The notes under the pieces are model-generated. The model was given only the letters and a program-made list of their open reading frames with translations, had not been told where the DNA came from and searched no databases. From the NCBI GenBank assembly GCA_008933055.1, contig WBXK01000009.1, positions 1 to 32,809 of the forward strand: a stretch of 32,809 nucleotides of DNA, read 5' to 3'. This stretch comes from Verrucomicrobiota bacterium (GTDB lineage Bacteria > Verrucomicrobiota > Verrucomicrobiia > Limisphaerales > JADLHS01). Positions 10,995 through 13,942 of this stretch are shown piece by piece (position 1 is the first letter of the stretch; each line of letters opens with the position of its first letter). A program made the position numbers and the translations under genes.

Positions 10995-11543
10995 CTAACC
11001 CTTCTCAACTTGCCAATATTCCAGCTCAACCGGAGTATTGCGTCCAAAAATGTTAACCGTCACCTTGAGCTTGCCACGATCTGGATCTACCTCCTCGATC
11101 ACGCCGCTAAAATTCAAGAACGGCCCGTTGTTGATTTTCACTGTCTCGCCGATATTGAAGGCCACCTTCGGACGTTCAGTTTCTTCCGATGCAGACACAA
11201 CTGCCTTGATAACTTGCATCTCCTCGTCCGTAGCCATGTGGGGATGCTCCCCGCCGACGAAACCAATCGCACCCTGCGTTTCCTTGACGAAATAAAAAGG
11301 TTTGGGCAAAACGCGGTTGTTTTCATCCAGCAACTCCATGTGAATATAGACGTATCCCGGATGCAGCTTGCGGTTCGTGACCGTCTTTTTTTGGCTGCGA
11401 ACCTCGACAACCTTCTCCATGGGGACCAGCACTTCTTGGATAAAGTCCTGCATCTCCTCAGTCTTAATGCGTTTCTCGATGCTGTCTTTGACTTTCTGCT
11501 CTTGGCCAGAAAGGGTATGGATGACGAACCACTTCGGTTTCAT
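10995..11543 (-). CDS. nusG: Transcription termination/antitermination factor NusG
   Basis: Binds RNA polymerase at the clamp and couples it to Rho or the ribosome. The 182 residues match the family. The N-terminal NGN domain begins MKPKWFVIHTLSGQEQKV and includes RKLHPGYVYIHMEL; the C-terminal KOW domain contains FNIGETVKINNGPFLNFSG and ends EYWQVEKG. It follows secE after 6 bases, so the two are almost certainly cotranscribed. Confidence 0.97.
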   Translation of the reverse strand: MKPKWFVIHTLSGQEQKVKDSIEKRIKTEEMQDFIQEVLVPMEKVVEVRSQKKTVTNRKLHPGYVYIHMELLDENNRVLPKPFYFVKETQGAIGFVGGEHPHMATDEEMQVIKAVVSASEETERPKVAFNIGETVKINNGPFLNFSGVIEEVDPDRGKLKVTVNIFGRNTPVELEYWQVEKG

Positions 11544-11549
11544 GTTTGC

Positions 11550-11813
11550 TTAAATTAGGTTGAACAATGCAAACATCACCCTATCCACCACAAAGGTGAA
11601 CAGGCCGAGCAGCGCAATTGACACCATAACCAAGACGGTTGAACCCTTGAGCTCATCCCATGTTGGCCATGTGCATTTCTTAAGCTCTTCCACCGTCTGA
11701 TGCCAATACGCAGACAGGCGTTGTATCTGACCTTTCCACCAAAGCACGCCGAAAACGGCGGCCAGCACACCAACCCAAAACAAGGTTTTCATTTGTTCAA
11801 AATTTTCCGCCAC
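11550..11813 (-). CDS. secE: Preprotein translocase subunit SecE
   Basis: Small membrane subunit of the SecYEG channel. With the GTG start at 11813 it has 87 residues; the ATG at 11792 would give 80 and begin MKTLFWVGVL. Two hydrophobic segments are visible (LFWVGVLAAVFGVLWW and STVLVMVSIALLGLFTFVV), with the conserved amphipathic stretch between them (YWHQTVEELKKCTWPTWDEL), the hallmark of SecE. The extra N-terminal helix resembles longer SecE forms. It lies next to nusG, and a hairpin and a G-rich repeat sit just upstream. Confidence 0.93.
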   Translation of the reverse strand: MAENFEQMKTLFWVGVLAAVFGVLWWKGQIQRLSAYWHQTVEELKKCTWPTWDELKGSTVLVMVSIALLGLFTFVVDRVMFALFNLI

Positions 11814-11816
11814 CTT

Positions 11817-11832
11817 CCAAGCTCATGCTTGG
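11817..11832 (-). promoter_or_regulatory. Small hairpin at the secE start
   Basis: CCAAGC and GCTTGG form a perfect 6-bp stem with a 4-base loop just ahead of the GTG start of secE, and the stem adjoins a GGAAGG that could serve as ribosome binding site. It may influence secE initiation. Confidence 0.35.
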
Positions 11833-11857
11833 CACGTTAGGTACCGCATTACACCTA

Positions 11858-11882
11858 CCCCCGCCCCGCCCCGCCCCGCCCC
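11858..11882 (-). repeat. GGGGC tandem repeat, potential RNA G-quadruplex upstream of secE
   Basis: On the transcribed (minus-sense) RNA there are five G-runs of 4, 4, 4, 4 and 5 bases, each separated by a single C. This meets the pattern for a very stable G-quadruplex. It sits between tRNA-Ser and secE, in RNA left after tRNA processing. Repeat number could vary by slippage. Confidence 0.8.
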
Positions 11883-11896
11883 AACCTCTAGAGATG

Positions 11897-11986
11897 TGGC
11901 GGAGAGGGAGGGATTCGAACCCCCGTTAGGCTTTCGCCTAAAGCGGTTTTCAAGACCGCCGCGATAGACCACTCTGCCACCTCTCC
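11897..11986 (-). tRNA. tRNA-Ser (anticodon UGA)
   Basis: A 90-base minus-strand tRNA with encoded CCA. The acceptor GGAGAGG pairs with CCTCTCC, followed by discriminator G. The anticodon loop is CTTGAAA with anticodon TGA in a GCGGT/ACCGC stem. A long variable arm (TTAGGC...GCCTAA), diagnostic of serine tRNAs, and a T loop GTTCGAATC are present. It lies 8 bases from the tRNA-Trp gene. Confidence 0.95.
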
Positions 11987-11994
11987 GCAATTTT

Positions 11995-12070
11995 TGGCAG
12001 GGCGTGAAGGACTTGAACCTTCAACCAACGGTTTTGGAGACCGCTACTCTACCAATTGAGCTAACGCCCT
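11995..12070 (-). tRNA. tRNA-Trp (anticodon CCA)
   Basis: A 76-base minus-strand tRNA with encoded CCA. The acceptor AGGGCGT pairs with ACGCCCT plus discriminator G. The anticodon loop is CTCCAAA, giving anticodon CCA for UGG codons. The T loop reads GTTCAAGTC. A tRNA-Trp between tuf and secE is a widespread bacterial arrangement. Confidence 0.96.
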
Positions 12071-12101
12071 ACGCTAAATTTTTCGGCCCCTCAACTGGAC
12101 T

Positions 12102-12134
12102 AAAACGGAGGCGACGGATTTTACCGCCGCCTCC
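12102..12134 (-). terminator. Terminator-like hairpin after tuf
   Basis: Twenty bases after the tuf stop, GGAGGCGGCGG pairs with CCGTCGCCTCC (11 bp, one G-T) across a 6-base loop, followed by GTTTTAG. The stem is strong but the T-run short, which fits a partial terminator that lets some transcription continue into tRNA-Trp, tRNA-Ser and secE. I see no clear promoter between it and the tRNAs. Confidence 0.7.
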
Positions 12135-12153
12135 GAATGAATATCAAAACAAA

Positions 12154-13341
12154 TTAAGCCAAGACTTCCGTAACGATGCCCGATCCAATAGTCCGACCAC
12201 CTTCGCGGATCGCAAACTTCAAACCCTTATCCATCGCCACCGTCTTCTGCAATTCGATGTCCACAGAGACGTTGTCACCTGGCATCACCATTTCAACCCC
12301 AGCGGGCAGATTCAACGTTCCCGTCACGTCGGAAGTGCGGAAATAGAACTGGGGACGGTAATTGGTAAAGAAGGGAGTATGACGACCACCTTCATCTTTG
12401 GTCAAAACATAAACCTCCGCCTTAAACTTCGTGTGCGGCTTGATCGTGCCAGGCTTGGCAAGAACCATGCCACGCTCAACCTCTTCCTTCTTAGTGCCGC
12501 GCAGCAAAACGCCGACGTTGTCGCCAGCATTCGCAAACTCGCACAACTTACGGAACATTTCGATGTCTGTTGCGGTGGTCTTGCGAGTGTCTTTCAAGCC
12601 GACAATTTCAACTTCATCCATCTTCTTGAGAACACCCCGCTCCACACGCCCAGTGACAACTGTGCCACGACCTTCAATGTTGAACACGTCCTCAACGCAC
12701 ATGAGGAAGGGCTTGTCCACTTCGCGCAACGGGTCAGGAATAAAGGTATCCAAAGCTTCAAGCAAGTCAGTAATCGCCTTCTCTCCTTCAGGCTTGCCAG
12801 CCATCGCAGCCGTTGCAGAACCACGGATGATCGGAGTCGTGTCACCAGGGAAACCATACTTCGTCAGCAGGTCACGAATTTCCATTTCGATGAGCTCGAG
12901 CAAGTCAGCATCAGCCAGGTCAACCTTGTTCAAGAAAACAACCATACTCGGCACGCCGACCTGACGGGCGAGCAAGATGTGCTCACGAGTCTGAGGCATT
13001 GGGCCGTCCGCAGCACTGACAACAAGAATTGCGCCATCCATCTGCGCGGCGCCCGTGATCATGTTCTTCACATAGTCAGCATGACCAGGGCAGTCAACGT
13101 GGGCATAGTGACGCTTCGGACTTTCATACTCCACATGGGAAACAGCGATGGTCACAGTCTTAGTATCATCACGCACGGTACCACCCTTTGTGATATCGGC
13201 ATAGGAAATCGCAGGAGCAAGACCCTTCCGGTTCTGCACCGCGACGATGGAGGCGGTCAGGGTGGACTTGCCGTGGTCAACGTGGCCAATGGTGCCGACG
13301 TTCACATGCGGTTTCGTTCTTTGAAATGCTTCTTTTGCCAT
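12154..13341 (-). CDS. tuf: Translation elongation factor Tu
   Basis: GTPase that delivers aminoacyl-tRNA to the ribosome; 395 residues, normal length. G1 is GHVDHGKS (19-26), G3 is DCPGH (83-87) and G4 is NKVD. The domain 2-3 motifs [21 protein letters not shown] and [13 protein letters not shown] are intact. Switch I is odd: between about 46 and 66 it reads [20 protein letters not shown] where most EF-Tu proteins have a DxxPEEKxRGITI pattern. The magnesium-coordinating Thr appears conserved as T64, but the preceding Arg-Gly is Lys-Thr. The gene lies between tRNA-Thr and tRNA-Trp and is driven by a strong promoter. Confidence 0.97.
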
Positions 13342-13401
13342 ATTGTTCTGCGTTCAGTTGTTGTCGTTAACTTTTTATTTTATCCGTCTCTTAAATTTGT
13401 C

Positions 13402-13477
13402 TGGAGCCCATGATCAGGATTGAACTGATGACCTCGTCCTTACCAAGGACGTGCTCTACCAACTGAGCTACATGGGC
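13402..13477 (-). tRNA. tRNA-Thr (anticodon GGU)
   Basis: A 76-base minus-strand tRNA with encoded CCA. The acceptor GCCCATG pairs with CATGGGC plus discriminator T. The anticodon loop TTGGTAA sits in a CGTCC/GGACG stem and gives anticodon GGT. It is the first gene after the promoter and directly precedes tuf, as thrT precedes tufB in E. coli. Confidence 0.96.
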
Positions 13478-13595
13478 GTCCCGAACACTTCGTCATCCTG
13501 ATGCGCAAAACGACAAGAGGCCTTCCCCACACCTTTTCCTTCGAAAACCTGAGTGTTTGGTCGGATTGTCTTTTTTACGGCTCTAAGACTTTGGA

Positions 13596-13624
13596 AAAAT
13601 AGGAAACCCAACGAAAGGTGTCAA
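13596..13624 (-). promoter_or_regulatory. Sigma-70-type promoter with UP-like element for tRNA-Thr-tuf
   Basis: On the minus strand a perfect TTGACA (13624-13619) is followed after 17 bases by TATTTT (13601-13596). Just upstream is an A/T-rich stretch (about 13625-13650) like an UP element. Transcription would begin near 13588, about 110 bases before tRNA-Thr. This is the only strong promoter I see for the block down to rpoC. Confidence 0.8.
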
Positions 13625-13717
13625 CATTGGTTTTATTTTTTTTGATTTTATAATGCCCATCTCATCAAAGAAACGTAAGAGTTCGCTCGCAGTGAATATT
13701 GAGAGCCTTCAATTTTA

Positions 13718-13736
13718 CCCCCCCCCGGGGGGGGGG
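13718..13736. repeat. C9-G10 homopolymer palindrome
   Basis: Nine C followed immediately by ten G, a loopless palindrome in the gene-free stretch 13625-13942 upstream of the tuf promoter. No gene is seen in that stretch. The tract could be a slippage-prone site or an assembly artefact. Confidence 0.85.
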
Positions 13737-13942
13737 ATCAAAACCCCAAATACACCGTCTCAAACAAGACGGAACTCATGATTTGAGTCATTAATTCAAT
13801 GTTTATATCGCCGGGTGTGGTGCTTAACTTCTTCTATCGGGGGTCGGGGATAAATGCGCCGCGATGCTTATCATCAGCGCTAAGCCGTCGAACACGAGCA
13901 TTTAAGTCGAGCTTGCCGACTTCGCGTCAACTAGTCCTTCGC

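Follow-up and report, generated by a model that had tools for sequence, protein, structure and literature searches.

Whether a perfect GGGGC repeat between a tRNA-Ser gene and secE is a conserved, regulatory RNA quadruplex or a simple tandem repeat in a permissive spacer is the question raised by a short array in a 32,809-nucleotide stretch of contig WBXK01000009.1 (positions 1 to 32,809, forward strand), from the Verrucomicrobiota bacterium assembly GCA_008933055.1. This whole stretch is referred to here as the window. The genome to which it belongs (G000) is a draft assembly of 2,513,622 bases in 199 contigs and is 78% complete. The array and its neighbours are all on the minus strand, as follows.

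10995..11543, minus strand: nusG (Pfam PF02357 and PF00467)
11550..11792, minus strand: secE (Pfam PF00584, E 1e-15), with its likeliest ATG start at 11792 in an ORF that opens at GTG 11813
11793..11896, minus strand: spacer of 104 nt from the CCA of tRNA-Ser to the secE ATG, with no further copy in its own assembly beyond short chance matches
11817..11832, minus strand: hairpin CCAAGC-ATGA-GCTTGG between the array and secE, matched by 13 of 200 shuffles and not conserved
11858..11882, minus strand: GGGGC pentanucleotide array, a putative G-quadruplex motif (sequence, Tandem Repeats Finder, G4Hunter 3.2)
11897..11986, minus strand: tRNA-Ser(TGA) with encoded CCA (ARAGORN; Rfam RF00005)
11995..12070, minus strand: tRNA-Trp (CCA anticodon) (ARAGORN; Rfam RF00005)
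12154..13341, minus strand: tuf, encoding EF-Tu (Pfam)

Ribosomal protein L11 was also confirmed in the window with Pfam, and ARAGORN and Rfam together identified three tRNAs, tRNA-Ser(TGA), tRNA-Trp and tRNA-Thr. At the gathering threshold Rfam returned these three tRNAs and no RNA family match to the secE leader.

Regarding the array itself, the minus strand reads four copies of GGGGC followed by GGGGG from 11882 to 11858, and the plus strand at 11858-11882 is the complement of GGGGCGGGGCGGGGCGGGGCGGGGG. The sequence-only reading had described five G-runs of four to five bases separated by single C residues, and this is exact on the minus strand, the run lengths being 4, 4, 4, 4 and 5; Tandem Repeats Finder independently reported positions 11859-11882 with a period of 5, 4.8 copies and 100% matches, that is, a simple sequence repeat consisting of perfect tandem copies of a unit of 1-6 nt. 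A regular-expression search and G4Hunter also place the array among putative quadruplexes (at least four G-runs of at least three bases, with loops of 1-7 nt), and the description of an ideal G-quadruplex motif between tRNA-Ser and secE likewise holds, the motif being on the sense strand, the same strand as secE. With a G4Hunter score of 3.2, about twice the maximum of 1.56 found anywhere else, it is the strongest G-quadruplex motif of the window. Its 5' edge lies 14 nt (11896-11883) downstream of the encoded CCA of tRNA-Ser(TGA) and its 3' edge 65 nt (11857-11793) upstream of the likely secE ATG. None of the five G-runs carries a substitution, which is compatible either with a recent origin or with constraint. 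A coding explanation was rejected, as the longest secE frame does not include the array and the reading frames that cross or follow it are all very short.

The array is best explained as a lineage-specific GGGGC microsatellite that arose by slippage in a tolerant tRNA-Ser–secE spacer, any effect on secE being incidental and not an evolved, conserved control, and to this reading we assign a probability of about 0.85. The microsatellite class is assigned on repeat structure in one genome of the species, and the slippage origin and the near-neutrality of the array are probable. In the mechanism proposed here a short G-rich seed, which is possible, would have expanded by the 5-nt unit GGGGC, probably via replication slippage, and the spacer, having no conserved sequence in this order (Limisphaerales, Verrucomicrobiota), would have accommodated the expansion. 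Transcription continuing from the tRNAs would include the array, whose RNA is predicted to fold into a four-layer quadruplex. About 14 nt would separate this structure from the tRNA 3' end and 65 nt from the start codon; the effect on secE, if any, would be a by-product in one lineage.

The array clearly exceeds the expectation from base composition. When the window was shuffled 100 times with dinucleotides preserved, no match to four tandem copies of GGGGC arose, even with up to three mismatches allowed, and under Markov models of order 1-4 trained on the window the expected number of copies of the 24-mer is below 1e-6 per 2.5 Mb. For a tandem repeat, though, base composition is an inappropriate null model, because slippage creates such arrays, and variation in copy number is a hallmark of that process. 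The array shares with the pentanucleotide microsatellites and other simple sequence repeats of bacteria its perfect head-to-tail 5-nt units, its intergenic position and its sporadic occurrence among relatives, but differs in its few copies (4.8). Bacterial short tandem repeats are hotspots of insertion and deletion, according to PMC12699852.

Arrays of this type with at least four runs (pattern GGGGCGGGGCGGGGCGGGG) are scattered sporadically through the order and were detected in 21 of 320 genomes. Apart from the array in the window there are 21 of them, in 20 genomes and at unrelated places; no tRNA gene was detected in the fetched loci (up to 3 kb) around these 21 arrays, and the GC content of those loci is 54-71%. 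The local GC content around the array in the window is about 52%.

The junction between tRNA-Ser and secE was compared across 112 loci around nusG, including that of the window (L003), of which 105 are distinct; five genomes (G012, G015, G021, G030 and G035) were left out because they gave no locus despite matches. Five of the distinct loci were dropped as no tRNA-Ser was found before secE, four of them (L041, L049, L100 and L113) having no tRNA in a short upstream stretch and one (L060) having tRNA-Trp only, and 100 remain. In all 100, which include the window, the tRNA gene closest upstream of secE is tRNA-Ser(TGA) with its CCA encoded, and it is preceded by tRNA-Trp in 95; the gene order tRNA-Trp–tRNA-Ser–secE–nusG is widely conserved in relatives. 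The distance from the tRNA to a conserved SecE motif is shorter than 165 nt in 77 of these 100 loci and longer in 23; judged from the motif distance, the shorter class has its secE start no more than about 45 nt from the CCA. The 23 long gaps are largely dissimilar in sequence. By sequence comparison, the tRNA-Ser–secE gap of the Limisphaerales changes fast, has no conserved sequence and tolerates changes in length.

Regarding the motif, a G3 pattern (loops of 1-7 or 1-12 nt), a G4 pattern or tandem GGGGC was detected in one of the 100 gaps, that of the window itself, and not even two tandem GGGGC units are present in the other 99. Looser G2 motifs are found in nine gaps including the window, with differing sequences, and a GGGCGGG seed in three, again including the window. 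A conserved secE leader element would keep its motif or structure at the orthologous junction, and neither is kept there. In the last 60 nt of the 23 long gaps hairpin scores averaged 10.9 vs 11.0 for shuffles, with no excess, and a conserved hairpin before secE was accordingly rejected as a candidate. Good hairpins directly after the CCA are present in some gaps (L115, L107, L011 and L075); the window has none. A separate observation is a GCTTCGGCyCGGCCAGC-like stretch, after which come an A/T-rich run and TTGTGA, just before secE in L004, L011, L075, L082 and L086.

Within the genus the array is absent from all five other genomes, both at the junction and anywhere in the genome. The start codon lies about 8, 8, 8, 83 and 87 nt from the tRNA in these five and 104 nt from it in the window. 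The nearest relative (genome G003, locus L004), with a NusG that is 98% identical, has a gap of about 87 nt and no array. Both tRNAs and most of secE align closely between L004 and the window, but the gap does not: the alignment score for the whole gap was reached by 392 of 1000 shuffles. The best local alignment, 25 columns, pairs the array with TTGGAGCGAATCGAGAGCGGGCGGG of L004, and for the first 50 nt the score was reached by 191 of 1000 shuffles; an ancestral G-rich seed in L004 is thus not supported, its match being no better than shuffles, while the GGGCGGG found in three gaps makes a seed possible. Since the flanks align and the gap does so no better than shuffled sequence, the junction is a fast-changing one and the array is private among the genomes examined. 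The long variable arm of tRNA-Ser (11897-11986) also differs between the two, with TTTAGGCGAAAGCCTAACG in the window and TTTGGCCTCACGGTCAACG in L004, the remainder of the gene being identical.

The alternative that survives best, though improbable, is that of a functional RNA quadruplex in the secE leader, which would fold after removal of tRNA-Ser, block exonucleases or hold ribosomes, and so set the expression of secE-nusG. A simple promoter scan of 11500-13800, which is weak evidence, placed promoter-like sites upstream of the tRNAs only; no secE promoter was detected by it within the gap, and a promoter there was rejected on that basis. As the array is on the sense strand and no promoter-like site lies between it and the tRNAs, read-through transcription is expected, and a read-through transcript would carry the array 14 nt downstream of the 3' end of the tRNA, in agreement with the suggestion of the sequence-only reading that it would lie near the new 5' end after tRNA maturation. 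The ideal sense-strand motif with its G4Hunter score of 3.2 favours a functional quadruplex, as does folding with ViennaRNA of the leader plus about 30 coding bases, which gave -89.7 kcal/mol with quadruplexes vs -34.6 kcal/mol without, the quadruplex energies being approximate; by this model the array RNA should form a four-layer quadruplex.

In PMC11087576, translation in a T7/E. coli in vitro system rose about fivefold when a quadruplex lay in the 5'UTR 43 bp ahead of the ribosome-binding site, and a pattern of enhancement appeared in E. coli cells as well; this geometry is not far from the 65 nt that separate the array from the ATG. As such reporters, in which the quadruplex lies upstream of the start codon as the array does, show that translation can be shifted, an incidental effect of the array on secE is plausible by analogy. 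Sites detected by rG4-seq are known in E. coli and P. aeruginosa, as PMC6974567 states. The quadruplexes described in these two sources share with the array sense-strand G-runs in a transcript; they come from reporters or rG4-seq, whereas the array is characterized by sequence and prediction and its motif is not conserved.

Against a functional quadruplex, none of the five congeneric genomes has the motif, 99 of 100 distinct gaps lack it, and in 77 of 100 no more than about 45 nt lie between the tRNA and the secE start, leaving little or no room for it; a conserved companion structure nearby was not found. A conserved role, be it the protection of the message or the control of secE that had been proposed from the sequence, is not supported by these counts (1/100 distinct gaps, the window; 0/5 other genomes of the genus), and the absence of the G-runs from relatives, which that proposal had itself named beforehand as speaking against it, is what was found. 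In the 77 short-gap loci the secE start is often 5-20 nt from the CCA of tRNA-Ser, and so short a gap would leave the secE message almost without a leader after tRNA maturation.

A version confined to one species, in which the new array is a folded quadruplex that would protect the 5' end of the processed secE-nusG message and set the output of SecE and NusG in a manner tunable by slippage, seems a shade less probable still. An isolated perfect array in a motif-poor genome, at a place with about 52% GC, could reflect selection in one lineage. If copy number varied by strain and tracked secE expression, the array would exemplify a rare form of control, tunable by slippage, at the junction of a tRNA and an mRNA. 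As things stand, the array counts as an ordinary microsatellite of one lineage and cautions that an ideal quadruplex motif in the leader of an essential operon is not necessarily a conserved element. A literature search on bacterial RNA quadruplexes, tRNA-mRNA junctions at secE/nusG, Verrucomicrobia and G-quadruplex repeats found no report of the array.

A further reading, with as slim a chance as the single-species version, is that the array belongs to a mobile or dispersed repeat that entered the gap between tRNA-Ser and secE, an event that has apparently occurred in some relatives. The long gap of L011 (G008, C47:131531-131632) contains 24 nt (query 24-47) that recur as near-copies elsewhere in G008 and in the congener G011, and many near-copies of the hairpin at the end of this gap are present in G003; a small dispersed repeat may use the junction of L011; the gap of the window is also about 95 nt longer than in three congeners. 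The spacer of the window has, however, no other copy in its own assembly: a 108-nt region searched against it gave matches of 14-19 nt only, with E values of 0.44 or worse, which are short chance matches, and a dispersed-repeat origin was rejected on this ground. Neither a second GGGGC array nor any other GGGGC triple was detected in the 2.51 Mb assembled, nor was any other period-5 G3 quadruplex pattern (GGGNNGGGNNGGGNNGGG), and one array per 2.51 Mb is not the many genomic copies of a dispersed quadruplex repeat family; the gap of L004, likewise, is not repeated in full elsewhere in its genome. According to PMC4692102, the quadruplex-forming GGGNATC-type repeats of Xanthomonas and Nostoc resemble the array in being G-rich, tandem, of about four units, non-coding and capable of forming quadruplexes, but have 7-nt units in many copies dispersed genome-wide, whereas the array has a 5-nt unit and is single in the assembly.

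An assembly or sequencing artefact, with the repeat collapsed or expanded in a draft metagenome contig, is very improbable: short G-rich tandem repeats are prone to error and an assembly error within the repeat is possible in a 78%-complete draft of 199 contigs, but the 25-nt array is shorter than one short read and its flanks run unbroken into tRNA-Ser and an intact secE frame.

Elsewhere around the junction, a 12-pair hairpin followed by TTTTA (window 12106-12135, minus strand), located between tuf and tRNA-Trp, is conserved in L004; it may mark the end or attenuation of tuf transcription ahead of the tRNA-secE unit. Near the secE start, TTTTGTGA is present in 17 of the 100 distinct loci; the window has TTTTGAACAAATG there (11790-11803), and its secE start therefore seems to have shifted to the downstream ATG.
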